Virus record (IMG/VR): IMGVR_UViG_3300042691_045800
Span: 1-42,622 of that record
Length of the DNA stretch: 42,622 nucleotides
Origin: a virus
Direction: 5' to 3' (one strand)
The notes under the pieces were generated by a model. It had not been told where the DNA came from. It did not search any database and saw nothing but the letters and a program-made list of their open reading frames with translations. Of the stretch, positions 780-42,622 are shown piece by piece; the stretch's first letter is position 1, and every line of letters begins with the position of its first letter. Both the position numbers and the translations under genes were made by a program.

Positions 780-813
780 AATATTTTCCTTTTATTTTGT
801 TTGTTAAAATAAA

Positions 814-963: not shown

Positions 964-978
964 ATAGCCTCCATTTAT

Positions 979-1260: not shown

Positions 1261-1277
1261 TTTATATCTCCTTTATT

Positions 1278-1384: not shown

Positions 1385-1391
1385 GTGTTAA

Positions 1392-1802: not shown

Positions 1803-1817
1803 GTTTTTTCTCCTTAA

Positions 1818-2482: not shown

Positions 2483-2555
2483 TATGACCCCCACATAGTT
2501 TAAAAATAGCAACTGCCATAGCAGCCAGTGAAATTAAAACCAATATTGAATGCAT
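2439..2555 (-). CDS. Small single-pass membrane protein, 38 aa
   Basis: The ATG at 2555 shares its first base with the stop of the Gp157-like gene (TAATG) and has GGAG eight bases upstream. The product has 38 residues, with a hydrophobic N-terminal segment (SILVLISLAAMAVAIF) and a short basic tail. It overlaps the start of the next gene by 44 bases in another frame. The hydrophobic segment and coupling support it, but its small size keeps confidence modest. Confidence 0.45.
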   Translation of the reverse strand: MHSILVLISLAAMAVAIFKLCGGHNGKIVNRKKDVFFR

Positions 2556-3723: not shown

Positions 3724-3908
3724 TATGCTTTTTCCTCCTGCTCTTGAATTTTTTCGTATATCTCCTGTCGATGGACAGAAACGTTGGGTGGGGCAATGAC
3801 GCCGATCTTGGCTTGACCTTTATACGGTTGAGTGCTGCCCAAATAAACAATGGTTATGTCATTACCAATTTTTATTTGTTGACCTTTCTTCCTTCCAAGT
3901 ATTAACAT
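3723..3908 (-). CDS. csrA: CsrA/RsmA-like RNA-binding translational regulator
   Basis: The 61-residue product aligns across its length with CsrA: MLILGRKKGQQIKIG at the N-terminus, IGVIAPPNVSVHRQEIYEKI at the C-terminus, with a loop (TQPYKGQ) two residues longer than in E. coli. The RNA-contact residues Leu4, Arg6 and the Arg of VSVHR are present. CsrA dimers bind GGA-containing leader RNAs and block or stabilise mRNAs in the host cytoplasm. It is the first gene of the left operon, directly after the repressor-controlled promoter, so it would be made at once on infection or induction. Its likely use is to reprogram host or phage translation; targets are not visible. Confidence 0.92.
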   Translation of the reverse strand: MLILGRKKGQQIKIGNDITIVYLGSTQPYKGQAKIGVIAPPNVSVHRQEIYEKIQEQEEKA

Positions 3909-3945
3909 GCTCTTAATTCTCCGTTTTGTTTGTTAATCATTTGAT

Positions 3946-3974
3946 AATATAACTGTACACTATGTACGTGGCAA
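3946..3974 (-). promoter_or_regulatory. Left early promoter of the csrA operon
   Basis: On the minus strand TTGCCA (3974-3969) lies 17 bases from TATATT (3951-3946), a good sigma-70 promoter. The predicted start is near 3939, about 30 bases before the csrA ATG, with GGAG in the leader. A 13-bp palindromic operator fills the spacer, so repressor binding would exclude RNA polymerase. Confidence 0.75.
3955..3967. promoter_or_regulatory. Operator O1 (repressor/Cro site)
   Basis: GTACACTATGTAC is a perfect inverted repeat (GTACA, 3-base centre, TGTAC). Near-copies occur in the cI and cro promoters at 5019-5031 and 5086-5098. It sits in the spacer of the csrA promoter. Confidence 0.75.
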
Positions 3975-4028
3975 TAGCAATACATTGTGTTGAGTTTTTT
4001 ATAAATTTAATCAAAAAAGGAAAGTGAA

Positions 4029-4280
4029 ATGAAAAGAAGCGTATTAATTGTGGGGCTGCTGGTAGGATGTTTTGGTCTTCAGGGATGCATGGTGGCCGCA
4101 ATTGGGGCCGGAGTTGGGGCGTGGAAATATGGTAATTCTAAAAAAGTTGCCGCACAGGGAAGCTCTTATAACGAATACTTGTTGGGGATGGAAGAAATTA
4201 ACTTGAAGCGAAGTGCTGCTGGGCTGAGGCCAGAATATATTATGAGCCAAGACCAGTATATAGGGAAAACCAAGCAATAA
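4029..4280 (+). CDS. Small lipoprotein, possible superinfection-exclusion or conversion gene
   Basis: The 83-residue product has a lipoprotein signal: basic MKRS, hydrophobic VLIVGLLVGCFG, lipobox LQGC with Cys at residue 20. The mature part is about 64 residues, Gly-rich then polar (EYLLGMEEINLKRSAAGLRP). AAAGGAAAG precedes the ATG. It is a lone rightward gene between the csrA promoter and the terminator that separates it from cI, so it is transcribed apart from the lytic operons, as prophage-expressed 'moron' genes are. A TATAAA at 4000-4005 could be its -10, with a poor -35. Phage lipoproteins in such places often block receptors (for example T5 Llp); that role is inference. Confidence 0.75.
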   Translation: MKRSVLIVGLLVGCFGLQGCMVAAIGAGVGAWKYGNSKKVAAQGSSYNEYLLGMEEINLKRSAAGLRPEYIMSQDQYIGKTKQ

Positions 4281-4284
4281 AAAA

Positions 4285-4301
4285 GGGGGGCAATGCCCCC
4301 C
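4285..4301. terminator. Bidirectional rho-independent terminator
   Basis: A seven-pair GC stem, GGGGGGC-AAT-GCCCCCC, is flanked by an A-run on the left and AATTATTTTT on the right. It can terminate the lipoprotein transcript rightward and the cI transcript leftward, and lies between these convergent genes. Confidence 0.9.
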
Positions 4302-4313
4302 AATTATTTTTAG

Positions 4314-5006
4314 TTATCTCCTCAACCTTGGTTTTGACATTGTATAAACCACCACGCCTATGATCTCAATATCATCATTGAGCGGCGTAATTGGTAGGCG
4401 AGAATCTACCCCAGTCAATAGAATTTCTTGTCCATCCTGCTGATATTGGCGGAATCTAAAATCCATTGGGCCAAATTTTGCCAAAACAAAATCACCTGAT
4501 TTCAAGGGCTTATCATTGGCAACGTCAACAATAGCAATGTCGCCGCACGATAGCCCCCTTTCTGGGACTTGCATGTCGGTTAACGCATTGTTGGTAATTT
4601 CCAATGAGAAGGTGCTTTTACTTAAATCATTATAATCAGGGAAACTCATCACTTTATGATCTCCTTTTAAGACTGGATAAGCTAGCCAAGGTTCAATCTC
4701 GCTAGCAGTCAAACAAGGAATAATCATATCATTTATTTTAGAAGAAATTTCGTCTAATTTTGTAGTCATTTCGCCATTCATGCACTCCCCATATGCCAAC
4801 CACCCAGGGGTTACCCCTATCGCTTTGGCAATTTTTTGCAAATAATAATTATTTATATGTCTTTTGCACGTAAGGTAGTGACTTACTTGGCTGGTCGTTA
4901 TGCCAACCCGAGAAGCAAGGTCAAGGTAGGTAAAATGAAGCTCACTCATTCTTTCACGAAGTCTGCGGGCAATTTCAATTTGAATCAGTTTTTTTGAATT
5001 TTCCAT
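4314..5006 (-). CDS. cI-like repressor with S24-type C-terminal domain, catalytic dyad replaced
   Basis: The start ATG at 5006 gives 230 residues; a longer in-frame extension upstream would run through the promoter and is rejected. Residues 8-65 form an HTH (YLDLASRVGITTSQVSHYLT). Residues 130-225 match the LexA/CI peptidase fold (GDIAIVD, SGDFVLAKFGPMDFRFR, PITPLN, EIIGVVV). Compared with lambda CI, the nucleophilic Ser of the NSM motif is Ala141 (NNALTDM), the general-base Lys is Arg186, and no Ala-Gly cleavage site is seen in the linker. The protein should dimerise and bind operators but not cleave itself. Its promoter overlaps operator O2, so it probably controls its own synthesis. There is no ribosome site: the mRNA is likely leaderless. 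Confidence 0.9.
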   Translation of the reverse strand: MENSKKLIQIEIARRLRERMSELHFTYLDLASRVGITTSQVSHYLTCKRHINNYYLQKIAKAIGVTPGWLAYGECMNGEMTTKLDEISSKINDMIIPCLTASEIEPWLAYPVLKGDHKVMSFPDYNDLSKSTFSLEITNNALTDMQVPERGLSCGDIAIVDVANDKPLKSGDFVLAKFGPMDFRFRQYQQDGQEILLTGVDSRLPITPLNDDIEIIGVVVYTMSKPRLRR

Positions 5007-5015
5007 AATAAATAA

Positions 5016-5044
5016 ATCGTACAGGATGTAAGTGGTGTTTACAA
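5016..5044 (-). promoter_or_regulatory. Repressor promoter (PRM-like), leaderless start
   Basis: On the minus strand TTGTAA (5044-5039) is 17 bases from TACGAT (5021-5016). The expected start is only a few bases before the cI ATG at 5006, giving a leaderless or near-leaderless mRNA, as for lambda cI from PRM. Operator O2 overlaps the spacer and the -10. Confidence 0.7.
5019..5031. promoter_or_regulatory. Operator O2
   Basis: GTACAGGATGTAA resembles operator O1 (10 of 13 bases) and keeps the TACA...TGTA arms. It overlaps the -10 of the cI promoter. Confidence 0.65.
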
Positions 5045-5072
5045 CAATTTTGTTATATCTGCTTCTAAGCGA

Positions 5073-5101
5073 TTGCGAAAAGATGTAACATAGTGTAAAT
5101 T
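5073..5101 (+). promoter_or_regulatory. Right early promoter (PR-like) for cro and replication genes
   Basis: TTGCGA (5073-5078) is 17 bases from TAAATT (5096-5101). The expected start is at or next to the cro ATG at 5108, so the cro mRNA also appears leaderless. Operator O3 covers the spacer and the start of the -10. Confidence 0.65.
5086..5098. promoter_or_regulatory. Operator O3
   Basis: Read on the minus strand the site is TTACACTATGTTA, sharing the ACACTATGT core of O1. It lies in the cro promoter between -35 and -10. Confidence 0.65.
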
Positions 5102-5107
5102 TCTTGA

Positions 5108-5323
5108 ATGAATTTATTTGAATATGTCGATCAATTCCCCAAACACATGCGTCCAAACATTAAAAGAGCCTTAGCCGAAGCGCTTGGAGTCTCTGTTTCT
5201 ATGATTGATTCTGTTCGTTGGGGGCGCAGAAATTTCCATCCACGCCATGCGCGCGCCTTGGAGAAGTTCACCCGCGGCCAAATAAGCCGTGTCGATCAGT
5301 TTCCAGATATTTTCAAGAAGTAA
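5108..5323 (+). CDS. Cro-like / YdaS-type HTH repressor
   Basis: The 71-residue product is a single HTH domain. Residues 18-50 (IKRALAEALGVSVSMIDSVR) hold the helix-turn-helix, followed by WGRRNFHPRHARALEKFTRG and the C-terminal SRVDQFPDIF that is typical of YdaS/Cro-type phage regulators. It diverges from cI and should compete for the same operators to commit to lytic growth. It begins almost at the predicted transcription start with no ribosome site. The position and the size make the Cro role likely. Confidence 0.88.
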   Translation: MNLFEYVDQFPKHMRPNIKRALAEALGVSVSMIDSVRWGRRNFHPRHARALEKFTRGQISRVDQFPDIFKK

Positions 5324-5328
5324 CACAT

Positions 5329-5376
5329 GTCAGTCTCGGGGGTTTCATGGACGGCATCATTTACCCCGGGGCTGAC
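5329..5376 (+). promoter_or_regulatory. Stem-loop in the leader between cro and the initiator gene
   Basis: GTCAG (5329-5333) pairs with CTGAC (5372-5376) and, inside a three-base symmetric internal loop, CGGGG pairs with CCCCG, closing a 22-base loop. It has no U-run, so it is not a simple terminator. An antitermination or processing element is possible; this is only a structural observation. Confidence 0.4.
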
Positions 5377-5399
5377 TCCCTTTTAAAAGGATTGACAGC

Positions 5400-6203
5400 T
5401 TGCCCTACAAGATTAATGACGAAGAAATAAAGATCCTGAGGGGTAAGCCACACATAGCCAGGCTTGTATATTACGAAATGCGCTCTGTTATGGACTTTGA
5501 GACAGGCGTTGTTGGGAGATACAGAAGAATCTCTGAAAGGTTCTTTATTGAGTCGCTCGAAGTAGAAAGTTCAAACGGTATTCAGGGGTCGAAACCGACT
5601 AGAGGACAGATAAGAGCGGCGCTAAAAACCCTTGAAAAAATAGGGTTAATTGAGCCTCTAGGGGGGTATTGTTTTTTGCTTAAAATAGCCACAAGGGATG
5701 ACCAGGCGAGAAATAAACTGAGCCAGATCTCAACCAGATCTGAACCAGAAAAAAAACATGATATTTCTTTTGAATTCAATGACATACAGTGTACAGAAAA
5801 TAACATCTCAGCCAGAACTGAGCCAGATCTCAACCCACCTCCGGTAATACCGGAAGAACCGGTATATAAACATAAAAAACATTATCGTCCAAAACAGCTT
5901 GATTCACCTGACGGTGAACGACTGTTTCAAGAATTTTGGAATCTTTATCCAAGGAAGGAAGCGAAGAAGAAAACGTTGTTGGCATGGAAAAGCAAAAAGC
6001 TTGCCAAGCAGTGGGATGAGATCCGCGCCGATCTCGAAAGCCGTGAATGGCCTGACAATGCCCAATTCATCATGCTGCCCACAACCTATCTGAACGGGGA
6101 GCGTTGGAAGGATAGTGTTGCACAAAGGGCGGAGGAAGACGCTGCTGAGCAAGAGATGATGGAGCGATTAAGTAAAAAGTTGGAGGGGAAGAAATGGGAT
6201 TAG
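5400..6203 (+). CDS. Replication initiator (lambda O-like / replisome organiser)
   Basis: The start is TTG at 5400, nine bases after AAAAGGA; no upstream ATG is in frame and the residues just after it (KINDEEIKILRGKPHIARLV) look conserved. The N-terminal domain, residues 1-90, is a winged-helix type region (IARLVYYEMRSVMDFETGVVG, then GQIRAALKTLEKIGLIEPL) that would bind origin DNA. A low-complexity linker follows (residues 100-155), whose DNA carries iterons. The C-terminal domain has FQEFWNLYPRKEAKKK and FIMLPTTYLNGERWKD, the signature of phage initiator proteins that recruit the helicase loader. Length 267 fits. It overlaps the next gene by 10 bases. Confidence 0.85.
   Translation: MPYKINDEEIKILRGKPHIARLVYYEMRSVMDFETGVVGRYRRISERFFIESLEVESSNGIQGSKPTRGQIRAALKTLEKIGLIEPLGGYCFLLKIATRDDQARNKLSQISTRSEPEKKHDISFEFNDIQCTENNISARTEPDLNPPPVIPEEPVYKHKKHYRPKQLDSPDGERLFQEFWNLYPRKEAKKKTLLAWKSKKLAKQWDEIRADLESREWPDNAQFIMLPTTYLNGERWKDSVAQRAEEDAAEQEMMERLSKKLEGKKWD
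5723..5833. other. Candidate origin of replication: 11-bp iterons inside the initiator gene
   Basis: CCAGATCT/CCAGAAxx words recur with an exact 11-base period at 5723, 5734 and 5745, and again at 5812 and 5823. The two clusters are separated by about 60 bases of AT-rich DNA. Iterons plus AT-rich sequence in the linker of an O-like gene is the architecture of lambdoid origins. The encoded linker peptide is repetitive as a result (ISTRSEPE, SARTEPDL). Confidence 0.65.
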
Positions 6204-8440: not shown

Positions 8441-8774
8441 ATTTAATGCAAAAAAATGCGAGGCGGATGGCTATAGTTTTGATTCAAAAAAAGAAATGAA
8501 TTATTACCTAAGCCATTTAAAACCACGCCTACAAAGCGGTGAAATATCTGACCTGGAATTGCAGCCTTGTTATACGTTGCATCCAGGATTTAAGGATTTT
8601 CTTGGACGCAAAAGAATTGCAATAACTTATACGCCTGATTTCAAATATTATGATAAAGTTGATAAGCAATGGGTGATTGTTGATGTGAAGGGATTTCGTA
8701 CGGATGTTTATAAGATTAAGCTCAAGCTTTTTTTAAAACTGTTGCCAGAAAATACCATTTTTATTGAGGCGTAG
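8430..8774 (+). CDS. DUF1064-type phage nuclease-like protein
   Basis: The 114-residue product begins KNKFNAKKCEADGYSFDSKKEMNYY and has LQSGEISDLELQPCYTLHP, YTPDFKYYD and WVIVDVKG, then YKIKLKLFLKLLP. These are the DUF1064 signatures. The PDF...VDVKG arrangement matches a PD-(D/E)XK/VRR-Nuc-type catalytic core. Such proteins sit in phage replication regions and may act as Holliday-junction or branch nucleases in place of RusA. It overlaps the preceding gene by 11 bases. Confidence 0.85.
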   Translation: MKNKFNAKKCEADGYSFDSKKEMNYYLSHLKPRLQSGEISDLELQPCYTLHPGFKDFLGRKRIAITYTPDFKYYDKVDKQWVIVDVKGFRTDVYKIKLKLFLKLLPENTIFIEA

Positions 8775-8776
8775 AT

Positions 8777-9022
8777 ATGAACGATGAAGTAAATCATCCC
8801 GAACATTATACATCATCTAGCGCGGTATGCAGTTCGTGCGGACATGGCATAGAATGTATTGATATTACAAGGCACCTGTCTTTCAATATCGGCAACGCCA
8901 TAAAATACATCTGGCGGCATGAAAAGAAAGACGGTATTAAATCGCTCAAAAAGGCTATTTGGTATTTGAATGATCAAATTAAATTATTAGGGGGAGGCAG
9001 TGTTTCCAATGATGACAACTAA
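8777..9022 (+). CDS. DUF3310 protein
   Basis: The 81-residue product has VNHPEHYTSS, ECIDITRHLSFNIGNAIKYI, WRHEKKDGIKSLKKAIWYLN, the complete DUF3310 signature, with an inserted zinc-like CSSCGHGIEC. The family is widespread in phages, is sometimes annotated as a nucleotide kinase, and has no proven activity that I know of. Confidence 0.88.
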   Translation: MNDEVNHPEHYTSSSAVCSSCGHGIECIDITRHLSFNIGNAIKYIWRHEKKDGIKSLKKAIWYLNDQIKLLGGGSVSNDDN

Positions 9023-9158
9023 GGTTATAACAATAACTGAAAAAAATGCGCACGGCACAGCGTCGCACAGTGACATTGATTTTGCGGTTGATCCGTGGAC
9101 AATGACGATTGTTGGTGTATTGGCTGGGGTGTTATTGGTTAGGTGGTTAGTGAAATGA
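9009..9158 (+). CDS. Small membrane protein, 49 aa
   Basis: Tandem ATGs at 9009 and 9012 overlap the end of the DUF3310 gene; GGGGGAGG lies 11 bases upstream. The product has a polar N-terminus (MMTTKVITITEKNAHGTASH) and a C-terminal transmembrane segment (TIVGVLAGVLLVRWLVK). No family recognised. Confidence 0.55.
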   Translation: MMTTKVITITEKNAHGTASHSDIDFAVDPWTMTIVGVLAGVLLVRWLVK

Positions 9159-9184
9159 GTTTAAAAAATTTATAGGGGCATAAA

Positions 9185-9616
9185 ATGATTGATTGGATTG
9201 ACGTTAAAGACAGGTTGCCAGTCGCTGGGGATGGTAAGAAATATTTGGTTACTTATCAAACATATTATTCGCGCGCCCTTGAACGCTTCATATGCCGCAA
9301 AGAGCAGCAATTTGAGCTTTTGGAGTATGGCGTGGAGCATGGGGGTGTTAATTCTAAGTGGACTTTGTCTGGGGATGAATTTTTTGCAACCCATTGGGCT
9401 GAGATCAATAGCCCACAAGAGCAAACACTTGCAGATAAGCCAATTAATGATTCCTTTCGGACATTTGTCAAATTTGGATCATCGGTTCCATCTTTTGAAA
9501 TTCCTGAAGATCCGGTTGACAAAGAGCTGACCAAAGAAATTGATGAGGCGATCAATAAGGCTGCTGATAGTATTAGTAAATCGGTTAAGAAGGCTTGGAA
9601 GAAGGTATTTGGGTGA
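9185..9616 (+). CDS. DUF551-like protein with C-terminal helical extension
   Basis: Residues 1-75 match DUF551: MIDWIDVKDRLPVAGDGKKY at the start and ATHWAEINSP at the end. The remaining 65 residues are an extra acidic/basic helical tail (DKELTKEIDEAINKAAD, KKAWKKVFG). Ribosome site TATAGGGGC. Function unknown; the family is common among phage and prophage small genes. Confidence 0.75.
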   Translation: MIDWIDVKDRLPVAGDGKKYLVTYQTYYSRALERFICRKEQQFELLEYGVEHGGVNSKWTLSGDEFFATHWAEINSPQEQTLADKPINDSFRTFVKFGSSVPSFEIPEDPVDKELTKEIDEAINKAADSISKSVKKAWKKVFG

Positions 9617-33432: not shown

Positions 33433-33792
33433 TCAAGTCTCTTTAATGAGATGTTCTACTATAAGTAAATTATGTTTTTTTGCGCACTTTTTCATGTTTT
33501 TTGATCCACGGCTTTTGCCGTCCCAGTATAATAATAGCGCATCTGCATAATCTGCCATTTCTTCATTCCGTTTTGGCCCAGCAGCTTTACCAAATAACTC
33601 CCATAAAGCAGGGAATTGAATTAATTTAATATTGAGTTGGTCTGCAATTTTTTCGCCAATTTTATCGACACCTGACGCCCCGCCGCTAATTATTTCTTCT
33701 GGATACCCATACAACCCGCTAAAGATATTAAATGCTTCCAAAACCCCTTGAAAATCAGTGCAAGACCTGCCGCCTGCTATAATTAGCTTCAT
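33433..33792 (-). CDS. SLOG-domain protein (YspA / DUF2493-like)
   Basis: The 119-residue product has MKLIIAGGRSCTDFQGVLEA, IISGGASGVDKIGEKIADQL, LWELFGKAAGPKRNEEMADY and ALLLYWDGKSRGSKNMKK. These are the four landmarks of YspA-type SLOG proteins: G.R.F.D, SGGA.GVD, AG..RN..M and W.G.S.GT. SLOG domains bind nucleotide-derived ligands; some are receptors of NAD-derived signals in immunity. Whether this one senses, hydrolyses or soaks up such a ligand is unknown. It ends the block with the NAD genes. Confidence 0.88.
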   Translation of the reverse strand: MKLIIAGGRSCTDFQGVLEAFNIFSGLYGYPEEIISGGASGVDKIGEKIADQLNIKLIQFPALWELFGKAAGPKRNEEMADYADALLLYWDGKSRGSKNMKKCAKKHNLLIVEHLIKET

Positions 33793-33797
33793 GGATA

Positions 33798-34016
33798 TTA
33801 TTCCTCATTCCTAATAAAATAATCCAGCTCATTCAGGCATAATAAATAACCGCAGTAAAGATGATGCAGATCATGATGAGCGGGGTACATATCTCGCAGT
33901 TCTTCTGCTTTGCAAATGTTTGCTCTTAGAAATTGAAGCAACATTTCTTTATAGTCTTGAAGCATGTCTAATGGCTCTGCAAGCGCCTCAATAGCGTTCT
34001 CTCCAACCTTACTCAT
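33798..34016 (-). CDS. Hypothetical protein, 72 aa
   Basis: ATG 34016, behind GGAAAGAG, overlaps the previous gene by eight bases; the longer frame from 34202 lies inside that gene and is rejected. The product is helical with His clusters (YPAHHDLHHLYCGYLLCLNE). No family recognised. Confidence 0.6.
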   Translation of the reverse strand: MSKVGENAIEALAEPLDMLQDYKEMLLQFLRANICKAEELRDMYPAHHDLHHLYCGYLLCLNELDYFIRNEE

Positions 34017-34470
34017 CTCTCTTTCCTCTATTAAAATGATTTTTCCCAGGTATGCCGTGCTTATCAAATAACTCAGGGTTTTCATAAGCATTCCCCAATA
34101 TAATCGGCCCAAGCAATTCAGACTCAGCCGTTTCATATTTTGACGGGGTACACAGGCCGAATCCAATGTAAGGATGAATCGTGACATCATTAAAGAATTC
34201 AATTAAAGCAACCCCTTTATTGCCGCCAATATAGGTGAGGTCATACTGAATAAAATCCGCATCATAAATAGGTATCATTTCTCCGGTAATCTTGCACCGT
34301 CCCAGCATCCCTGTGGACAGCATAATGTCAGATCTTTCATTATCAGGAATATCATATATAGGCTGATCTATACCATAAGTATCTACACGATTATTGTTAA
34401 AATCAATTTTAGAAACAAACTGTATGGTCTGTGTTGGGAAATGAAAGATCCTGGGAATATAGATTGTCAC
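34009..34470 (-). CDS. YopX-like protein, 153 aa
   Basis: The product has QFVSKIDFNNNRVDTYGI, GRCKITGEMIPIYDADFIQY, GGNKGVALIEFFNDV and ESELLGPIILGNAYENPELF. The final IGNAYENPELF with the preceding IY..D...YD pattern is the signature of YopX-type phage proteins. Function is unknown; the family is common in early regions. Confidence 0.75.
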   Translation of the reverse strand: MTIYIPRIFHFPTQTIQFVSKIDFNNNRVDTYGIDQPIYDIPDNERSDIMLSTGMLGRCKITGEMIPIYDADFIQYDLTYIGGNKGVALIEFFNDVTIHPYIGFGLCTPSKYETAESELLGPIILGNAYENPELFDKHGIPGKNHFNRGKRDE

Positions 34471-34658
34471 GGCAGCCTTCCCCCTAATTCAGTGATTTGG
34501 GATTTTAAATGTTTAATAGCGTTTAAGTGCAAAGCAAGATATGTGCTACTGCCATATTTGCAATTAAAATACATGGCTTCTTCTATTTCTTTTATTTGGC
34601 TTCTCAAAAAATTAATTCTCCTTCGGCGAGCATTCCAGTTTAATAGCCTGTTTAACAT
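34467..34658 (-). CDS. Small basic helical protein, 63 aa
   Basis: ATG 34658, with GGGGGTTGAGG upstream, gives MLNRLLNWNARRRRINFLRS; a TTG two codons earlier is also possible. The N-terminal RRRR run may bind nucleic acid. It overlaps the zinc protein before it by 47 bases and the YopX-like gene by four. No family recognised. Confidence 0.5.
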   Translation of the reverse strand: MLNRLLNWNARRRRINFLRSQIKEIEEAMYFNCKYGSSTYLALHLNAIKHLKSQITELGGRLP

Positions 34659-34800
34659 CCTCAACCCCCTTCATTAGCTTGTCTCGATAAAGTTTATTTT
34701 TCTCTGTTTCTGGCGCTTCATAAGGACACCATGCGCAGACTTCTGGCAGAACATGCGTATAATAATTTTCAGTCTTGCATTCAGGGCATCTTGTTAGCAC
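34612..34800 (-). CDS. Zinc-ribbon small protein, 62 aa
   Basis: The product has MLTRCPECKTENYY and CAWCPYE, a pair of CxxC knuckles in the first 30 residues, then a helical charged part. It is preceded by a GGAGGAGAT ribosome site. Function unknown. Confidence 0.6.
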   Translation of the reverse strand: MLTRCPECKTENYYTHVLPEVCAWCPYEAPETEKNKLYRDKLMKGVEDVKQAIKLECSPKEN

Positions 34801-34834
34801 TCTTTATCTCCTCCTTCGTTTTCTTCTTCTAGGG

Positions 34835-35110
34835 TCATGGATTCTTCTCCAAATGCTTGTTAATATCCGAGATTAAATCGTCAATCCTATTGATAGCCTG
34901 ACACCCGCAGCTTAGTTCTGTGGCAATAAGCTTTTGATAAACATGCTCGATCAATTCGCGATCCCTGCTTATGTTATAATCCAGCCTTATCTTTAATTCT
35001 TTAGCCAGCTCTACCGCCTGCTCATAGGCATCTGAAACTCGAGGGCTACGACCCATGGCTCTAATTTCAAGTCCTTCAATTAATTGATCAATCGTTCTAA
35101 TTCCGGTCAT
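34835..35110 (-). CDS. Paralogue 1 of the DREL/KHLEENP family, 91 aa
   Basis: ATG 35110 with AAGGAG upstream; the longer frame to 35164 overlaps the previous gene and is rejected. The product has MTGIRTIDQLIEGLEI and YEQAVELAKELKIRLDYN, then SRDRELIEHVYQKLIA, and ends DLISDINKHLEKNP. The DREL(I/L) motif and the KHLE(E/K)NP end recur in the genes at 35451 and 35798, so this is one of three modular paralogues. Function unknown. Confidence 0.65.
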   Translation of the reverse strand: MTGIRTIDQLIEGLEIRAMGRSPRVSDAYEQAVELAKELKIRLDYNISRDRELIEHVYQKLIATELSCGCQAINRIDDLISDINKHLEKNP

Positions 35111-35454
35111 GGATTCTCCTTTTGAGCGGCTAATGAATATTTCAATTTGGCCGGGCAAAACCATCGATCCATCACAACATGACCAATACGGTAAATTCGA
35201 TTATCATTACGTTCTATCCTGACATGAGTCCCAGGAAGGTCTTCCCAACTTTTTATTTCTAACGCTTTTAAAATACCCTTTAAAAACTCTATACCGTAAT
35301 TTGACTCGGTATCTTGTGGGCCTGTATCTAAACGTCGTCCGCCAAACCCTTGGCACCAACCGTTGCCCTCTAACACCAAAAAACACGTAAAAGTACCGTG
35401 GTCTTCAAAACCAAGTTGGGTTTTTGTAATTCTTGCGTTTACTATTTCGTTCAT
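35107..35454 (-). CDS. Conserved phage protein, 115 aa
   Basis: The product has ARITKTQLGFEDHGTFTCFL, LEGNGWCQGFGGRRLD, GILKALEIKSWEDLPGTHVR and RIGHVVMDRWFCPAKL. I recognise the pattern LGFEDHG...L...G..QGFGG..LD...........W..L.G..VR......I..IG....D.WF as a common small phage family. It also ends in ENP, like its neighbours. Function unknown. Confidence 0.78.
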   Translation of the reverse strand: MNEIVNARITKTQLGFEDHGTFTCFLVLEGNGWCQGFGGRRLDTGPQDTESNYGIEFLKGILKALEIKSWEDLPGTHVRIERNDNRIYRIGHVVMDRWFCPAKLKYSLAAQKENP

Positions 35455-35801
35455 GGGTTTTCCTCCAAATGCTTGCGAATTTGTAAAGCAATCTTAGATC
35501 TAGCGGCTAAATCGCCTCTTGAAAAATTATTAATAGAGGGCTTAGAGGGATCATCCCTGTTATTGGCGTATTCTGTTAGGTCTTGATCCCGCACATGGTC
35601 GCGCGACAAAGAAAGCAATAGCTCCCGATCTTTATTTGGCGCTCTTTTATTCCAGGCAAGATTAATATCCCGCTGGTCTGCACTTATGCGAATTCCACAC
35701 TGGTTACATTTTAGGCATTTTTCTTCACTATAGCCATGCCAATAAAGCCAGGTATCAATTTGTTTGCCGCCGCAAAACGGACACGGTTTTAATTCATTCA
35801 T
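35451..35801 (-). CDS. Lar-like zinc protein fused to the DREL/KHLEENP module
   Basis: Residues 1-55 are the Lar-type zinc domain: MNELKPCPFCGGKQI, KCLKCNQCGIRISADQRDIN, AWNKRA. Lar proteins relieve host type I restriction in Rac prophage and are common in phages. Residues 56-116 (KDRELLLSLSRDHV, IALQIRKHLEENP) are the C-terminal module shared with the neighbouring genes. The fusion suggests the module was shuffled between small proteins. A restriction-alleviation role is only by analogy. Confidence 0.72.
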   Translation of the reverse strand: MNELKPCPFCGGKQIDTWLYWHGYSEEKCLKCNQCGIRISADQRDINLAWNKRAPNKDRELLLSLSRDHVRDQDLTEYANNRDDPSKPSINNFSRGDLAARSKIALQIRKHLEENP

Positions 35802-36073
35802 GGATTTTCCTCCAGGTGCTTGCGGATTTGTAATATTATGTCAGCCTCCACAGAAGGCTTTCGACTATCAAAAACCACACATCCATCCTCATCAAGAGAA
35901 TAGTAAGCTAGCTTGATTAACAGTTCCCTGTCGCCAGGCTTGGATTCTATAGTATTTTTAAATTCCGCGACTTTCTGCGCAGCATGTATAAGCCCAGCAC
36001 TAAAATCACCATCATATTCGCCGACAGAATCTTCTAAACAAGTAATTAATTCATCTAATGTGTAAGCCTTCAT
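35798..36073 (-). CDS. Paralogue 3 of the DREL/KHLEENP family, 91 aa
   Basis: The product starts MKAYTLDELITCLEDSVGEY with IHAAQKVAEFKNTIES, has GDRELLIKLAYYSLDEDG and ends ADIILQIRKHLEENP. The last twelve residues are nearly identical to those of the Lar-like neighbour. The spacers before both genes contain the same run of bases. Coupled by a four-base overlap. Function unknown. Confidence 0.65.
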   Translation of the reverse strand: MKAYTLDELITCLEDSVGEYDGDFSAGLIHAAQKVAEFKNTIESKPGDRELLIKLAYYSLDEDGCVVFDSRKPSVEADIILQIRKHLEENP

Positions 36074-36097
36074 TATGGGTTTCCCTCCAGGTATTTA

Positions 36098-36916
36098 TTA
36101 ATTATTCTGCCCAATACCGAGGACATCATGAAAAAATTCTTTTACAAAAGGATATAGCTTTTTGCCTAATGCCTTTTTAATGGCCGCCACCTCTTCTTCG
36201 GTTCCCTCTATCTGATTTTCTTCCTCTAGGTCTTTAACATAATCCTTGCATATAGAAGATAATGAGAGCGGATAGTCCCGAATATAAGCCTCATCACTGG
36301 ATAATAGCTTCTCTAGCCTTATAGGCTGCAATAGGTGGCTTACATCCACTGTTTTTTTGGGTACATATATTTTGTTTTTAGCCTTTTTCCAGGCAACTTC
36401 TTGATTGTCAAATACCTTTTTGTAGAACTTGCCATCTATCTCGATAACTATACCTTCGGGGCGCATGAAACCATCACAGACCAATGAGCCGTTTTCTTTC
36501 AAGTCCTCAAAAACAGCAGAGATTAGTTCTTTAGAAAATAGGCCATAAAACAATACCGGAACCACAGATACTCTTGTGGGCAACTGCTTATCTTCAAACT
36601 TTCTCCAATTAAAAAGAAATAACATTCTTTCTTTTAGTCCTTCCCCAGAATTAATCCCAGGGCCAGCCCATTCGCCATAATGCCTGCCAGGCCCAAGCTT
36701 TTCAATAAACTCATCTTTGTTGGCGTAGACAAATCCTGCAAAACCATAGTGATCATTTTCAGGGAAAATCCATCTGTTTCTGGCGGCGCACGCAAGCTTC
36801 ATTTCACCGTCTTCTTCATATATGTATACCTGAGCATTTGTGCCATGGATTTTCTGTGTAATCGACATGGTTGCTTCGTCCCAGTGCGGGATTTTTTTAA
36901 ACTTCTTAAATTCCAT
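36098..36916 (-). CDS. RNA ligase, Rnl2 type
   Basis: The 272-residue product carries the ligase motifs in order: motif I TQKIHGTN with nucleotidyl Lys22, a GFAGFVY segment, motif III GRHYGEWAGPGI (Glu82), motif IV RPEGIVIE (Glu154) and motif V FYKKVF (Lys166/167). KxHGTN is diagnostic for T4 Rnl2-like ligases, which seal 3'-OH/5'-P ends in nicked RNA. In phages this repairs tRNA broken by host anticodon nucleases. It follows the NAD genes by three bases in the same operon, so it probably belongs to the anti-defence block. The C-terminal domain (about 60 residues) is shorter than in T4. Confidence 0.9.
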   Translation of the reverse strand: MEFKKFKKIPHWDEATMSITQKIHGTNAQVYIYEEDGEMKLACAARNRWIFPENDHYGFAGFVYANKDEFIEKLGPGRHYGEWAGPGINSGEGLKERMLFLFNWRKFEDKQLPTRVSVVPVLFYGLFSKELISAVFEDLKENGSLVCDGFMRPEGIVIEIDGKFYKKVFDNQEVAWKKAKNKIYVPKKTVDVSHLLQPIRLEKLLSSDEAYIRDYPLSLSSICKDYVKDLEEENQIEGTEEEVAAIKKALGKKLYPFVKEFFHDVLGIGQNN

Positions 36917-36919
36917 AGA

Positions 36920-38329
36920 TCACCTAAATTTATAATCTTTCAATACCAGCTTCAGTTCGTTGTCATCTTCATAGAATTGATCCCAGGTAACGTTCTGTTG
37001 AACCTTAAGCTCACCATCGGCATTCTTAACTACCTTTAACAAACCAGAATGACTTTTTTTTGTACCATCATCAGTTTTAGGATTCTTGGTTATGGCGCGG
37101 CCAATGCCATTGATTTCTACATAAGTGGCCTTCATTGCCCAGCCAAGACTATCTCTCGTCTGATACTGATAGGTATAAGAGCCTATTCCGAAGACAATGT
37201 TTGTGCTTGCAAAACCTTTTGCTTCGAGGCGTTTGCAAATCTCTTCGCAGCGCTCCAAAGTAATAGAATCACCGTATATAGCACCTATATGCGGATCTAG
37301 CTCTTTATAGCCCTTACTGTTAATCGTGCCACCAAAGATGTCCCATAAGCATTCTATAAGGCCCTTAAAGTCAGAATCTTGATAATCTCCCGCAAATATA
37401 TCTCCACAAATAATTTTAATTGGATCTCCACTGTCTGGCCGAATCACAACCTTCCCGTCCCTTGACATAATCTTATGTTTAAGGACTGGCAAAATATGAT
37501 CAACCACATGCCATAAGTCCCAAGTATCGCTAACAATGCTTACTATTCCTTTTGGATAGACATCCTCTATTAATCGTCGATATGTTTCATATTCGTCTTC
37601 TTTTCCACCCGCGCTCATGACGCTATGCTCTGTGGCCGGAACCGATGATAATTGAGGTAAATCCTCGTAATACTGTTCCCTCAGCATAATGGCGGGGATA
37701 GTATCAGTTCCTTTAAAGTAGTGTAAATGTGCTGCACCCGACATCATGGCTGCCTCTAATCCAAACATACCCCTAAAGCTAAAATCATGCGCCTGGTAGT
37801 CTACAAATTCTGGACAATCCGAAGTTTCGGCAGCATAACGGTCTAAGATTTTCCTGTATTGATGTGCCATGGTCGCAGAAGTACAAGGCCCCCATAACGT
37901 GCAAGAAAGGATGGTTTCTAGCGCATTTGGGAGCCAATAAAAATCAGGATGAGTGTTGAACATAACAAGCGCAGGGATTCCTTCCGGAACAACAGATCCT
38001 TCCGGCAAAGCATAAATTTCTAATGGAAGATACCCAAGCCTCCCAAGGGCTTTTATATGATCGTATGTTTTTTCGCCACCTAGCGCCTGTTGCATGAACC
38101 CAGCATAATGGTCTGCGTGTATTTTTGTATGATAAAATAAAGCACAAAATCTATTAGTTAAATATTCATTGATGAAATATTTAAGCCCAAAAAACACAGA
38201 ATAATCGATGCCAGGAATACGTGATTTTCTTGGCGTAAAATTACTGAAGACCAAGTTAGTCCCAGGAGGATATTGCTCAAAATGATTAACCTTATAAAAG
38301 TCTTTTAAGAATATTGTATTTATGTACAT
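36920..38329 (-). CDS. Nicotinamide phosphoribosyltransferase-like enzyme (Nampt/Namat candidate)
   Basis: The 469-residue product aligns with NAMPT throughout: FYKVNHFEQYPPGT at the N-terminus (FGLKYF at 47-52), HDFSFRGMFGLEAAMMSGAA then HLHYFKGTDTIPAI (catalytic-site Asp209), VPATEHSVMSAGG with the catalytic His235, VIRPDSGDP (297-303) and a late GIGSYTYQ. All the key residues are kept, so it should be active. In a NARP1-type phage pathway the enzyme joins nicotinamide to ADP-ribose-pyrophosphate and makes NAD+ directly; ordinary Nampt makes NMN from PRPP. The pairing with a Prs-like gene and absence of an NMN adenylyltransferase favour the former. It is coupled to that gene by TAATG. Confidence 0.93.
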   Translation of the reverse strand: MYINTIFLKDFYKVNHFEQYPPGTNLVFSNFTPRKSRIPGIDYSVFFGLKYFINEYLTNRFCALFYHTKIHADHYAGFMQQALGGEKTYDHIKALGRLGYLPLEIYALPEGSVVPEGIPALVMFNTHPDFYWLPNALETILSCTLWGPCTSATMAHQYRKILDRYAAETSDCPEFVDYQAHDFSFRGMFGLEAAMMSGAAHLHYFKGTDTIPAIMLREQYYEDLPQLSSVPATEHSVMSAGGKEDEYETYRRLIEDVYPKGIVSIVSDTWDLWHVVDHILPVLKHKIMSRDGKVVIRPDSGDPIKIICGDIFAGDYQDSDFKGLIECLWDIFGGTINSKGYKELDPHIGAIYGDSITLERCEEICKRLEAKGFASTNIVFGIGSYTYQYQTRDSLGWAMKATYVEINGIGRAITKNPKTDDGTKKSHSGLLKVVKNADGELKVQQNVTWDQFYEDDNELKLVLKDYKFR

Positions 38330-39156
38330 TAGATTACCCTTATTTGAGTGACTCGTGGATGATCAATGTCTTGATAGGAGTTTGTGCAATAAATATGCTC
38401 AAAATAATAATCAAGTAAAACATCTATTCCTTTCGTAAATAGACCATGATAAACAAAAAGCGAAAGCTCTATTTCCGGGAAAAGTTGTTTTAAATATTTG
38501 GCTTCAGCAATAAAGGTGGCGCCGCCATCGCAAAGATCATCAACTATCATGATCTTTATTTTGTTGTCATTTAAATTTACGGCCTCATTAATCTCTTCAA
38601 TTGATTGATCTGATAATTCAACCAAAACATTTCCATCTTTGCGTTTTTTAATGAAATGAAGAGATGGCTTAGTGCCAGAAAATTCTTTTGCTGATTCATC
38701 TCCTGATATAATCAGATAATCACCACTTACTCCAAATAAAAATTTATTTACCTGCCTATGATTACATGATGAAATTATGTCTAGATGATGCATAGTGGAT
38801 AAAGCCAACGGGATAAACGGCCACAATACCCTTATCTCTGCGGCTTTAGATTTTGCTAATATTTTCATTACCACATCTCTAAAATAATTTGGCTGACCCT
38901 CGCTAAAGGCCCTATCATCTCTGACACCAAACAAATAAGAAAACACAATACTATAATGGAAATCATTTTTATAAAGCGCCGCTTCCAGGCAAAGTAAAAC
39001 CTCCAGATCTGAAAAGTTTTTTATGCGGCAGTTAATTTCAACTGGATGTTTTTTATCTAACTTAGTTAAATCCAAAACAATGTTGCGTTGCCCGTCTGGA
39101 TATTCAAGCAGTTCAAAATATTCTGATTTATTATTTTTCAGTTTTATTTCTTGCAT
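38329..39156 (-). CDS. PRPP-synthetase-like enzyme (Prs/Adps candidate)
   Basis: The 275-residue product has the Prs active-site pieces: flexible loop SYLFGVRDDRAFSEGQPNYF (residues 73-92), a dimer/ATP region LWPFIPLALSTMHHLD, and the PRPP loop IMIVDDLCDGGATF (203-215). Phage homologues in NARP1 (called Adps) transfer pyrophosphate to ADP-ribose instead of ribose-5-phosphate. It is about 40 residues shorter than E. coli Prs, as phage copies can be. Its TAA shares a base with the Nampt-like start, so the two are made together. Sequence alone cannot separate Prs from Adps. Confidence 0.88.
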   Translation of the reverse strand: MQEIKLKNNKSEYFELLEYPDGQRNIVLDLTKLDKKHPVEINCRIKNFSDLEVLLCLEAALYKNDFHYSIVFSYLFGVRDDRAFSEGQPNYFRDVVMKILAKSKAAEIRVLWPFIPLALSTMHHLDIISSCNHRQVNKFLFGVSGDYLIISGDESAKEFSGTKPSLHFIKKRKDGNVLVELSDQSIEEINEAVNLNDNKIKIMIVDDLCDGGATFIAEAKYLKQLFPEIELSLFVYHGLFTKGIDVLLDYYFEHIYCTNSYQDIDHPRVTQIRVI

Positions 39157-39203
39157 ATTTAATCCTTACTAATAATATAACAATTTTCCTGACACCACGA
39201 AAA

Positions 39204-39270
<67 letters not shown>

Positions 39271-39280
<10 letters not shown>

Positions 39281-39438
39281 ATGCGTGAATAATATTCATC
39301 TTCTATTTCCCAGTCATCCTTAGATAAATCCTTGATTTGAATCAGTTTCCACATAAGCGGATTTTTGGGGTCAATCCATATCTTATGCTCAGGACGTTTA
39401 AACGGTTTGCCTGTTAGCCATGCTTCATTTATATACAT
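39271..39438 (-). CDS. Small DDWEIED protein A, 55 aa (possible Tad2-like)
   Basis: ATG 39438 is two bases after the stop of its paralogue. The product is MYINEAWLTGKPFKRPEHKI, then DLSKDDWEIEDEYYSRMGL. Its TAG stop is the TAG of the tRNA D-arm, so the coding end overlaps the tRNA by ten bases. The A..TGKPFKR....W...DL..DDWE plan resembles small phage proteins related to DUF2829, the family of the Thoeris inhibitor Tad2. At 55 residues it is shorter than characterised Tad2, so the link is weak. Confidence 0.6.
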
Positions 39439-39440
39439 GC

Positions 39441-39620
39441 TTAATCCTCTTTAATTTCCCAGTCGTCCGCCAGAATGTCTTCAATATATAGCCTGCTAAT
39501 CTCAGTATTTCCCAAATATAAATCCATGCCTTCATAATTATCACAAATATCATCAGCCCATTCATCATGGCTGCGTCTTTTAAATGGCTTCCCGCTCTTT
39601 CTGGCCTCAATTATGTTCAT
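39441..39620 (-). CDS. Small DDWEI protein B, 59 aa (possible Tad2-like)
   Basis: ATG 39620, with AAGGAAGATAAGAAATG just before, overlaps the previous gene by four bases. The product is MNIIEARKSGKPFKRRSHDE and ends IEDILADDWEIKED. It is a paralogue of its neighbour (GKPFKR, W, ILADDWEI). The I-LADDWE end is the common C-terminal signature of DUF2829/Tad2-type proteins. A role in sequestering NAD-derived signals would fit the nearby NAD genes, but this is inference. Confidence 0.6.
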   Translation of the reverse strand: MNIIEARKSGKPFKRRSHDEWADDICDNYEGMDLYLGNTEISRLYIEDILADDWEIKED

Positions 39621-39991
39621 TTCTTATCTTCCTTAACCAGCAGTTCGTCTAACTTCTCATTTACAATCATCATTACCTTTGCAGGTATGTTAGATTGTTT
39701 CGCCATGTGTGCGCCAGCTATTAGATAAATGGTCTGTTTGGATGGAATTAAACAGGCTGTACACAAAAAAATTATTGCCAAAATAAATCCTAAAACAGGA
39801 AATTTTACATATTTTCTTAACGGATAAGTTTTTGGTATTGAAGGGTGGTCTGCATTTTTATTTTCAGAATGAAAGATAAATGCAAAAAATACAGGCACGC
39901 TTATTACCACAGAAATGGCGGCCAAAATAGCAAAAAAACCCGTCATTTTTAGTGATACATCCGCGAAATAAATTAACCATTCAATGCTCAT
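39617..39991 (-). CDS. Membrane protein with two TM segments, 124 aa
   Basis: The product has hydrophobic segments at about 15-40 (TGFFAILAAISVVISVPVFF) and 67-87 (VLGFILAIIFLCTACLIP), then SKQTIYLIAGAHMAKQSN and a charged tail. The ...LIPSK.TMYLIA.A pattern is common in phage small membrane proteins. Function unknown. Overlaps by four bases on each side. Confidence 0.7.
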   Translation of the reverse strand: MSIEWLIYFADVSLKMTGFFAILAAISVVISVPVFFAFIFHSENKNADHPSIPKTYPLRKYVKFPVLGFILAIIFLCTACLIPSKQTIYLIAGAHMAKQSNIPAKVMMIVNEKLDELLVKEDKK

Positions 39992-40185
39992 TGCGTACCC
40001 TCCCTTCTATCATTACAATTACTATCACTGATAGCCTTTTGCAAATAATCATCATTGATCCAAAACTCCTGATCAAGTTGATTCTTTAGTTTGTACATGA
40101 GTGGCCCGCCTGCTTTTCGGCAGTCTTGAATATCAACCACCCTTCCCTTAAAAGTAAAATCTATTCTTTCTCCTAGCTGTTTCAT
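39988..40185 (-). CDS. Hypothetical protein, 65 aa
   Basis: The product begins MKQLGERIDFTFKGRVVDIQ and is beta-rich (YKLKNQLDQEFWINDDYLQK), resembling a small SH3/OB-like fold. It overlaps neighbours on both sides by four bases, which supports expression. No family recognised. Confidence 0.55.
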   Translation of the reverse strand: MKQLGERIDFTFKGRVVDIQDCRKAGGPLMYKLKNQLDQEFWINDDYLQKAISDSNCNDRREGTQ

Positions 40186-40430
40186 GTGTTAATCCTTCGG
40201 ATTTTGATTTGAGATTGCGGCAAATAAAAAATGCTGTCTTCATGTCCGCAATATCCATGAACACGTATGCGAGGCTGGGCATCAGGATGGACAATGTCAT
40301 TATCAATAAAAGCTTTAATCCAAATGGGTTGGTCTGCTTTTATTTCTTCAGGCCGAATGTACTCATCTTCTCTAAATATATTTTTTGACCCAAATATCTT
40401 TTCCGTCATTTTTTTGACTAACCCTTTCAT
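40182..40430 (-). CDS. Small protein, paralogue of the C-terminus of the gene at 41045, 82 aa
   Basis: Residues 25-82 (IRPEEIKADQPIWIKAFIDN, IVHPDAQPRIRVHGYCGHED, FYLPQSQIKIRR) correspond to the last 60 residues of the upstream gene (IKPEEIKQGLPVWIEGFIDG, IVHEDGEIRVRVIRSHKHEN, FYALASQIKLRH). A gene duplication with loss of the N-terminal part is evident. Function unknown. Confidence 0.65.
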   Translation of the reverse strand: MKGLVKKMTEKIFGSKNIFREDEYIRPEEIKADQPIWIKAFIDNDIVHPDAQPRIRVHGYCGHEDSIFYLPQSQIKIRRINT

Positions 40431-40447
40431 CTATTCGTCCTCATTAT

Positions 40448-41044
40448 TTAACAAGAGCAAGTCAGAAAGTTAGCCGTATTAACGGGTTTAACGCCTGTAA
40501 TATTTTCAAAATGCTCCCAGAATTCATCACAAATATAGTGGCCCTCAAATTCAGGATGAGACCAGAAATCCCAGCCATCTCGCTCCTTTTGGCCGCCATA
40601 ATGTTTGGCTTGCTCAATCAGCCTGGAATATGAAACGCCGAGATCGTCCGCAAATTCTTGCATCCACTTTTCTGAAACTCTTTTTTGCGCTGCTGATTCA
40701 ATGGCTATATCATCTTTTACATCGTCAAAAGCGGGATGAGTCCATACATGGCGAAGAGACGTGATCTGACGGGGCATTACTATTAGCCAAAAGCGCTGTC
40801 CTTCATACACTTCATCCGTCAGAAATGGATCAACAATACCTATTGCAGAGCCATAACCAGAAAGGTATGCCTTGCCATCTTTTCCAATTTTTATCCGGTC
40901 TCCTGGCGACAATGAATGATTCCCACAGATAACTGGCTCAACAGCCAAATGAACCGCATCACGCTTTTCGTTTTCGCCAATAATTGTGCCAAGTGTTTCT
41001 AAGGCATCAGTGAAAACTGTTCTACTGTCTATATTATTTTTCAT
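40448..41044 (-). CDS. Conserved phage protein with terminal CSC motif, 198 aa
   Basis: The product has DAVHLAVEPVICGNHSLSPG, GIVDPFLTDEVYEGQRFWLI, MPRQITSLRHVWTHPAFDD and ends NFLTCSC. This combination (HIAV.PV....L.PG......IGIVDPFL...V..G.RFW......TSLRH.WTHP, FxxCSC end) is a known conserved family in metagenomic phages. Function is unknown. Clear stop; it starts one base after the upstream gene's stop. Confidence 0.78.
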   Translation of the reverse strand: MKNNIDSRTVFTDALETLGTIIGENEKRDAVHLAVEPVICGNHSLSPGDRIKIGKDGKAYLSGYGSAIGIVDPFLTDEVYEGQRFWLIVMPRQITSLRHVWTHPAFDDVKDDIAIESAAQKRVSEKWMQEFADDLGVSYSRLIEQAKHYGGQKERDGWDFWSHPEFEGHYICDEFWEHFENITGVKPVNTANFLTCSC

Positions 41045-41584
41045 CTATTCGTCCTCGTGGCGAAGTTTTATTTGGGAGGCTAACGCATAGAAAACATTAT
41101 TCTCATGCTTGTGACTTCTAATAACGCGGACGCGAATTTCACCGTCCTCATGAACAATGTTTCCATCAATAAACCCCTCGATCCAGACAGGAAGACCTTG
41201 TTTTATTTCTTCAGGCTTAATAGGCTCATCATTTAGTGGGCGGATGTCTTTTTCTGTGACAATAGATGAAAACTCTATTAGCTCTTTACTGATCCGTCCT
41301 GTGTTTCTGGTGATCACTTCATAGTCGCCATCCGAATCGGGCAAAGACGCTATTTTGGCCTTAATCCATACCTCTTGATTAATCTTATACTTTGGCGCTG
41401 CTTTTTCTGGTTCTATTTTCGATAGATAGCATTCCTCTACTACTGCTTCCTTCATATTCATAGAATCAAAAGAAACGACATACTGCGTGTGGAAGCTGCG
41501 TTTTATAAGATAAGTTATAACGCCCTCACCAACCTCAGAAAGAATATGCTTAACCCGATCGCCCACGTTAAATTTATGTTTCAT
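41045..41584 (-). CDS. Two-domain small beta-barrel protein, 179 aa
   Basis: Residues 1-60 (MKHKFNVGDRVKHILSEVGE, YVVSFDSMNMKEAVVEECYL) look like a KOW/SH3-type barrel and 70-110 a second (KINQEVWIKAKIASLPDSDG). Residues 120-179 are the segment shared with the gene at 40182. The barrels suggest RNA, DNA or protein binding. RBS AAGGAG-like (GGAGATAAACA) precedes the ATG. It lies next to the repeat protein. Confidence 0.65.
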   Translation of the reverse strand: MKHKFNVGDRVKHILSEVGEGVITYLIKRSFHTQYVVSFDSMNMKEAVVEECYLSKIEPEKAAPKYKINQEVWIKAKIASLPDSDGDYEVITRNTGRISKELIEFSSIVTEKDIRPLNDEPIKPEEIKQGLPVWIEGFIDGNIVHEDGEIRVRVIRSHKHENNVFYALASQIKLRHEDE

Positions 41585-41612
41585 TGTTTATCTCCTGCTG
41601 TGAATTACTTTA

Positions 41613-42622
41613 TTATGTTTCAATAACGGGATTGTATGTGCCATTTTCAAATCCAAAAGTCCAGCCAACGGCCTCCTCTGCTGTTTGGCACTCTGGCGGA
41701 ACTCTCAAAAAATAATCCTTAAACGTCCCGCCTGGTTCTGCTGTAGAGTTTTTAACCTTAACCATAACCAAAGGCTCATCAGCAGTTATGTCTTTTTTAT
41801 ATAGCTCACCAAACTTATCTTTATTAATTAAGACAGCTCCGCTATCAAGCAAATACTTCTGTTGCCCATATTGATCAATCATTACTCTTTTAACTTCAGC
41901 GTTTTGCTCATTTTCTATTTGTTGGATTGTGATTTTATCTGGAGAGATAATTACATAATCAGGAACACGCACGCCATGAACCGCATATATTGCCCAGCCG
42001 TCGGGATATAAAACCGCTGGCTGAGACAATGAATGTAATCTGCCATTTTCATCTCGATTTAACAGACAATGTCTTTCAGACACCCAGCATATATTTTTAT
42101 GCGGCAAAAACCATCCGGCATTTTTTGCTAGCTCGGTCAATCCATTTAATTTTTCTGTTTGATCAGTTAAATTCAATTCATTTCTAAAAAAATCATAAAG
42201 CGCAAGCCAGCTTGCATCATGTTGACCATAACCAGAATCCTCGACAGCATCCCCGACAGCATCCCCGAAAGCATCCCAGAGAGAATCCCAGACAGAATTC
42301 GCCACAGAATCCCTAACAGAATTCCAGACAGCTTCCCTGACAGAATCCCTGGCAACTTCCCCGACAGAATTCGCCACAGAATTCCTAACAGAAATCCAGA
42401 CAGAGTCCCCGACAGCATCCCAGACAGGATCGCTGACAGCGTCCCCGACAGAATTCGCTACAGAATTCCTAGCAAAAATCCAGACAGAATTCCTAACAGA
42501 CTCCCTGACAGAGTCCCCGACAGAATTTGCTACAGAATTCCTAGCAAAAATCCAGACAGAATTCCTAACAGACTCCCTGACAGAGTCCCCGACAGAATTC
42601 CAGACAGCTTCCCTGTCAGAAA
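41613..42622 (-). CDS. C-terminal part of tetrapeptide-repeat protein (DUF6745-like), cut by window end
   Basis: The frame is open from the window end to a stop at 41613 (336 codons), with no true start inside; a GTG at 42377 is only a repeat codon. The first 125 or so residues are about 31 tetrapeptides such as NSVG, DSVR, ESVR and NSVW. A globular domain follows, with WLALYDFFRNEL, WVSERHCLLNRDENGRLH, YPDGWAIYAVHGVRVPDYVI, DEPLVMVKVKNSTAEP and FLRVPPECQTAEEAVGWTFG. This part is what recalls DUF6745. It is the continuation of the gene that starts at 459. Tetrapeptide periodicity with Val at a fixed place suggests a regular beta solenoid or rod between two domains, but that is inference. Confidence 0.75.
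   Translation of the reverse strand, partial: SDREAVWNSVGDSVRESVRNSVWIFARNSVANSVGDSVRESVRNSVWIFARNSVANSVGDAVSDPVWDAVGDSVWISVRNSVANSVGEVARDSVREAVWNSVRDSVANSVWDSLWDAFGDAVGDAVEDSGYGQHDASWLALYDFFRNELNLTDQTEKLNGLTELAKNAGWFLPHKNICWVSERHCLLNRDENGRLHSLSQPAVLYPDGWAIYAVHGVRVPDYVIISPDKITIQQIENEQNAEVKRVMIDQYGQQKYLLDSGAVLINKDKFGELYKKDITADEPLVMVKVKNSTAEPGGTFKDYFLRVPPECQTAEEAVGWTFGFENGTYNPVIET
42240..42622. repeat. 12-bp / 72-bp tandem repeat array (right end)
   Basis: The DNA is a run of 12-bp units built on gacagaattcc-like words. Each unit encodes one tetrapeptide of the repeat protein on the minus strand. A 72-bp higher-order unit starts at 42478 and again at 42550. Bases 42477-42622 match 1-146 with two substitutions. 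All length steps are multiples of 12, so copy-number changes would keep the reading frame. Confidence 0.9.

Follow-up and report, generated by a model that had tools for sequence, protein, structure and literature searches.

The closest described counterparts of the locus reported here are the NARP1 module of the Bacillus phage SPbetaL1 (134 kb), which consists of Adps followed by Namat with a one-base gene overlap, and the NrsAB pair of the Vibrio phage ICP1 (126 kb), which has both enzyme families in the same order with no gene overlap and raises NAD+ in vivo in an infected host with an NAD+-depleting defence (PMC11559045). The Namat of SPbetaL1 has been solved (PDB 9W5X and 9W5W); its use of ADPR-PP is conferred by a selectivity clamp composed of Arg40 in a loop and a helix with the motif GSx.x.x.TRD, in which positions 3 and 7 are aromatic, and this clamp is not needed in the synthesis of NMN, a reaction that Namat carries out in vitro with PRPP at roughly half the speed of human NAMPT (PMC12774641). 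Most known instances of NARP1 are in phages of at least 70 kb.

The DNA analysed, referred to as the window, comprises the 42,622 bases of an IMG/VR virus record, and its genome is P22-like as originally predicted, with a P22_portal Pfam match (E 6e-77) and families for head closure (Hc3) and DNA ejection. It encodes an Adps-Namat pair on the minus strand, with Adps first and the two genes adjoining (Table 1). The Prs-like and Nampt-like open reading frames of the original prediction are both present at exactly the coordinates it gave, as is the TAATG joint in which they have one base in common, and their matches to the PHROG families of ribose-phosphate pyrophosphokinase and nicotinamide phosphoribosyltransferase, respectively, are far above chance. 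The one-base overlap recurs in the related contig L011, also as TAATG, and in the characterised pair of SPbetaL1, there as TGATG; together with the common strand, it suggests a single transcript from which Adps and Namat would be translated together. A promoter scan returned 28 promoters, compared with 28.2 expected. An NMN adenylyltransferase, the enzyme of NARP2, had been predicted to be absent, and PF01467 indeed has no match in the record, whereas the same model is positive in 14 of 14 control genomes; a search for an RyR-domain (RyDEP) partner gave no match, and its controls gave none either. PADLOC also matched Adps with ShosT (22 bits), a hit that covers the phosphoribosyl loop alone and was set aside as non-specific. 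Elsewhere, six NARP1 loci (L100, L151, L155, L159, L160 and L167) have the reversed order, Namat then Adps, and retain a short overlap.

Table 1. Features of the Adps-Namat locus and its surroundings, numbered along the window
Feature	Position	Strand	Basis or remark
Adps-like gene, Prs fold, 275 aa, divergent clade	38329..39156	-	ORF; phrog_619 E 2e-25; AlphaFold2 pLDDT 90; Foldseek 7xmu E 3e-11; tree within Adps
Namat gene, 469 aa	36920..38329	-	phrog_448 E 8e-179; best PDB match 9w5x, 530 bits; inside Namat clade
TAATG, Adps stop TAA and Namat ATG start, base 38329 in common	38327..38331	-	
Codon 80 of Adps, Asp in ATP motif RDDR	38917..38919	-	Asp only in window and L011
Codon 114 of Adps, TTT (Phe), Mg-ATP histidine site	38815..38817	-	aligns with E. 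coli H131
VDDLCDGGAT, phosphoribosyl-binding loop of Adps, residues 205-214	38515..38544	-	
Arg37 of Namat, counterpart of SPbetaL1 Arg40 in selectivity-clamp loop	38219..38221	-	
Catalytic His235 of Namat (EHS)	37625..37627	-	
GSYTYQYQTRD, selectivity-clamp helix signature of Namat, residues 383-393	37151..37183	-	
RNA ligase, directly downstream of Namat, accessory, outside NARP1	36098..36916	-	Pfam RNA_ligase E 1e-8; phrog_548 E 6e-25
tRNA gene, anticodon CAT, accessory, 47 bases upstream of Adps	39204..39280	-	ARAGORN
Lar-like restriction alleviation protein (anti-restriction), same minus-strand block	35451-35801	-	phrog_599 E 4e-8
DUF6745 protein, same minus-strand block	41613-42377	-	Pfam E 2e-61
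HTH/S24 lambda-type repressor	4314-5156	-	

We regard the locus as a functional NARP1 pair with a remodelled ATP site in Adps, probably still rebuilding NAD+, and assign this reading a probability of roughly 0.7. Adps would transfer pyrophosphate from ATP to ADP-ribose, yielding ADPR-PP; Namat would combine ADPR-PP with nicotinamide to give NAD+ in a single step; and the NAD+ so rebuilt would undo the action of NAD+-cleaving defences. The original prediction of NARP1 stands for Namat (clamp residues, phylogeny, Adps partner, gene order, overlap and absence of an NMN adenylyltransferase) and for the assignment of the partner to the Adps family (profile, fold and tree); its description of the Nampt-like enzyme as intact does not extend to the Prs-like enzyme, in which the Mg-ATP histidine is lost.

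All available sequence tests identify the Nampt-like protein as a Namat, and it is of the standard clamp-bearing kind. Its best matches among solved structures are the two SPbetaL1 Namat entries (530 bits, versus 254 for NAMPT), and it is 54% identical to SPbetaL1 Namat and shares its clamp (Arg, aromatic, aromatic, TRD), which is complete in Arg37, Tyr385, Tyr389, Thr391, Arg392 and Asp393; the corresponding helix of ICP1 reads GSYTYQYVTRD. The predicted motifs EHS (with the catalytic histidine), GTD (residues 207-209) and RPDSGDP (residues 297-303) are all found, and the core residues at aligned positions (His235, Phe183, Arg186, Asp209, Arg297, Asp299, Asp10 and Tyr12) are all kept, as are all the catalytic and NMN-contacting residues checked. 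Aromatic residues occupy the two clamp-helix positions in 106 and 95, respectively, of 109 loci that have an Adps gene, and neither position in the eight Nampts that lack an Adps partner, namely human NAMPT and seven from phages. A tree of 97 proteins places the window protein among 89 Namats, including SPbetaL1 Namat and ICP1 NrsB, with that of L011 as its sister (99%), and the eight Nampts split off with 100% support; the window protein has the clamp aromatics that Nampts lack and does not group with human NAMPT.

By descent, as judged from profile, fold and tree, the partner is a divergent Adps. Its model has the fold of PRPP synthetase (mean pLDDT 90, pTM 0.87), with the E. coli enzyme as the top Foldseek match, and it has in common with the PRPP synthetases (E. 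coli PRPS, human PRPS1/2) the RxDR, KxR and VDDxxDxGxT motifs, the last being the predicted VDDLCDGGAT loop, and the ribose-loop Asp. Unlike these enzymes, it is without the histidine H131/H130, scores only 29.5 bits with TIGR01251 (PRPP synthetase cut-off 113; the validated Adps proteins of SPbetaL1 and ICP1, the latter named NrsA, score 106 and 98) and falls among Adps proteins in a 56-row tree in which three PRPP synthetases form a clade of their own (100/99). The window and the IMG/VR contigs L011, L012, L013, L014 and L095 (35.7-56.6 kb) constitute one Adps clade (100/100) on a long branch of 1.63 changes per column, and one Namat clade (100); this Adps clade has been found so far in small phage contigs. 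These relatives were found with an Adps alignment, a query with a single Adps or RNA ligase protein having found none. In place of the overlap of the window, gaps of 167, 427 and 1405 bases separate Adps from Namat in L012, L095 and L014. The window Adps is only about 20-25% identical to validated Adps proteins (about 20% to that of SPbetaL1), and because the structure of Adps was stated in January 2026 to be unresolved (PMC12774641), specificity for ADP-ribose is not readable from its sequence.

The Mg-ATP histidine, so called because it holds Mg-ATP in PRPP synthetases and whose counterpart with that role in human PRPS2 is H130 (PMC10227994), is the histidine of a PHS motif in 139 of 141 distinct Adps proteins and is replaced by Phe only in the window (WPFIP) and in L011 (WPFS). 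The other four members of the clade keep His114, as do NrsA of ICP1 (PHSDV) and the Adps of SPbetaL1, in which PHSDV and PDAGAAK correspond to PFIP and GDESAK of the window. The same two proteins alone have Asp80 in the RxDR ATP motif, a position taken by Ser, Gln, Ala or some other non-acidic residue in the remaining 139, and Trp112, where 128 of those 139 have Asp or Glu; as Phe114, Asp80 and Trp112 are specific to what is a single lineage, their co-occurrence is beyond statistical test. In all six members of the clade, Pro152 is replaced by Gly or Ala and Gly155 by Ser or Asn in a motif that is PDxG elsewhere. Of 16 Adps columns conserved to at least 97%, 12 match in the window, the exceptions being His114, Ser115, Pro152 and Gly155, of which the latter two are changed throughout the clade; the replacements at Ser115 and at Pro152/Gly155 vary within it. 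The set of putative catalytic residues is incomplete, with the near-invariant residues R79, D81, R82, D153, K170, R172, D206, D207, G212, T214, F215 and H237 kept. Sequencing error was rejected as the source of the histidine loss: TTT is present in two independent assemblies that differ in neighbouring codons, and it is two base changes away from the CAT of L012. Misalignment was rejected as well, the P-[HF] context being unambiguous within the clade and the profile aligning the site to E. coli H131. The loss of so conserved a histidine, which in human PRS1 shifts the product from AMP to ADP (PMC4363470), the changes at three more conserved positions, the low Adps identity and the relative G011, described below, all weigh against a functional NARP1 pair.

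Comparison of the window with L011 indicates purifying selection on both Adps (pN 0.26, pS 0.81, which is saturated; 60% amino-acid identity) and Namat (pN 0.14, pS about 0.8). The Adps/Namat ratio of dN is about 2 in every pair (2.4 for the His-bearing L012 and L013), and because the Phe-bearing pair has the same ratio as the His-bearing pairs, the Phe-bearing Adps shows no sign of relaxed constraint. In the relative G011 (contig L094, 40.4 kb), Namat is intact and bears the clamp, but Adps is reduced to a 56-residue N-terminal remnant. At positions 5119-6001 of that contig, the remnant is followed by open reading frames of 86 and 151 residues, after which comes Namat; by eye, these two frames, which occupy the place of the rest of Adps, resemble an HTH protein and an HAD-type phosphatase. 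Synthesis of NMN from PRPP may explain the survival of Namat in G011, and an unlikely extension of this idea to the window would have Adps weak or inactive and Namat acting mainly as a Nampt that makes NMN from host PRPP and nicotinamide, with a host NMN adenylyltransferase completing NAD+. Such a role would draw on the known activity of Namat with PRPP and fit the loss of the Mg-ATP histidine from Adps, but the clamp, unneeded for NMN synthesis, is fully present in the window and in G011, and Adps of the window and L011 is under purifying selection with its other catalytic residues present. The retention in G011 of a clamp that is dispensable for NMN points rather to Adps having been lost recently, or to supply from elsewhere.

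If the pair is a functional NARP1, the Phe-bearing Adps probably works with a rebuilt metal-ATP site, for which compensation by Asp80 is a candidate. We tentatively suggest that Asp80 either took over the role of the histidine or altered which phosphate group moves, a proposal that is possible rather than probable; if it is true, the window would contain a working NARP1 in which the metal or product chemistry of Adps is altered. The H130A variant of human PRS1 makes ADP instead of AMP with a similar, near-normal kcat (PMC4363470). That precedent, the replacement of His114 by Phe alongside Asp80 and Trp112 in the window and L011 only, and the clade-wide substitution of [GA]DxS for PDxG could also be accommodated by an active Adps of altered chemistry, using a different metal or nucleotide or passing just one phosphate to ADP-ribose or ribose-5-phosphate, so that the first step would differ from that of NARP1. 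We consider this improbable: the co-change belongs to one lineage and is beyond test, and a standard Namat downstream would still need ADPR-PP or PRPP. Canonical salvage, in which a Prs would convert ribose-5-phosphate to PRPP and a Nampt would convert PRPP to NMN, would suit the folds and the PRPP-synthetase-like motifs but is very improbable, as the clamp and the tree exclude Nampt for the second gene, and the first scores far below the PRPP synthetase cut-off and stands apart from PRPP synthetases in the tree. Decay of an unused module, for which the truncated Adps of G011 and the histidine loss in the window and L011 might be cited, is hardly credible when some 40% of Adps residues differ between the window and L011 and yet both reading frames are open and most of the near-invariant residues are present.

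A functional NARP1 pair would be unusual in a genome of this size, the window being that of a 42.6-kb P22-like phage. Among INPHARED records, 1,938 match Namat at the protein level, and in an even sample of 50 of these all are at least 70 kb except two short fragments of one phage and Podoviridae sp. ctKR88 (MW202524), an unstudied phage with a circular genome of 42.6 kb that is the sole small, apparently complete genome in the sample. Like the window, ctKR88 represents a small podophage whose Adps and Namat genes overlap and which encodes an RNA ligase, and its Namat is 57-59% identical; unlike that of the window, its Adps retains PHSDV and falls in a different Adps branch, and its RNA ligase gene is 6 kb from the pair. 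Namat occurs in only 2 of 21 IMG/VR records of at least 28 kb that have a related portal, some of which may be fragments, and the NARP1 module therefore looks accessory in this group. Because a scan of genome contigs with Namat gave no match, we name no host.

The neighbours of the pair include other candidate counter-defence genes. The RNA ligase was rejected as an obligate third component, since four of the six closest relatives are without it, and tRNA repair is a possible partner to NAD+ repair. A common counter-defence region combining NAD+ repair, tRNA repair and anti-restriction is plausible. In L095, four tRNA genes and a homologous RNA ligase gene lie just upstream of the pair (3360-4514), and L011 has close to its NARP1 a plus-strand gene (8670-9380) that by eye encodes an HD-domain, SpoT/Mesh1-like hydrolase. 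A second minus-strand block of the window (459-3908), beside the HTH/S24 repressor gene, encodes two proteins that are Sak4-like (an annealing protein) and Gam-like; in a circular genome, we infer, this block and the one at 33433-42418 would form a single leftward early operon of the lambdoid type. Arrays of 12-base repeats of the GACAGAATCCCT type, with a 72-base higher order, are found at both ends of the record (1-179 and 42233-42607), and are probably one array, running across the junction of a genome that is circular. Despite the lambda-type repressor, a search for a tyrosine integrase found none, either in this record or in seven relatives that carry NARP1.

The Adps-Namat pair takes up about 5% of a 42.6-kb genome, which suggests that small phages are likewise under pressure from NAD+-cleaving defences. 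A naturally occurring Adps that lacks the Mg-ATP histidine offers a ready-made test of which residues make ADPR-PP, and G011, with Namat and almost no Adps, offers a ready-made test of the usefulness of Namat alone.
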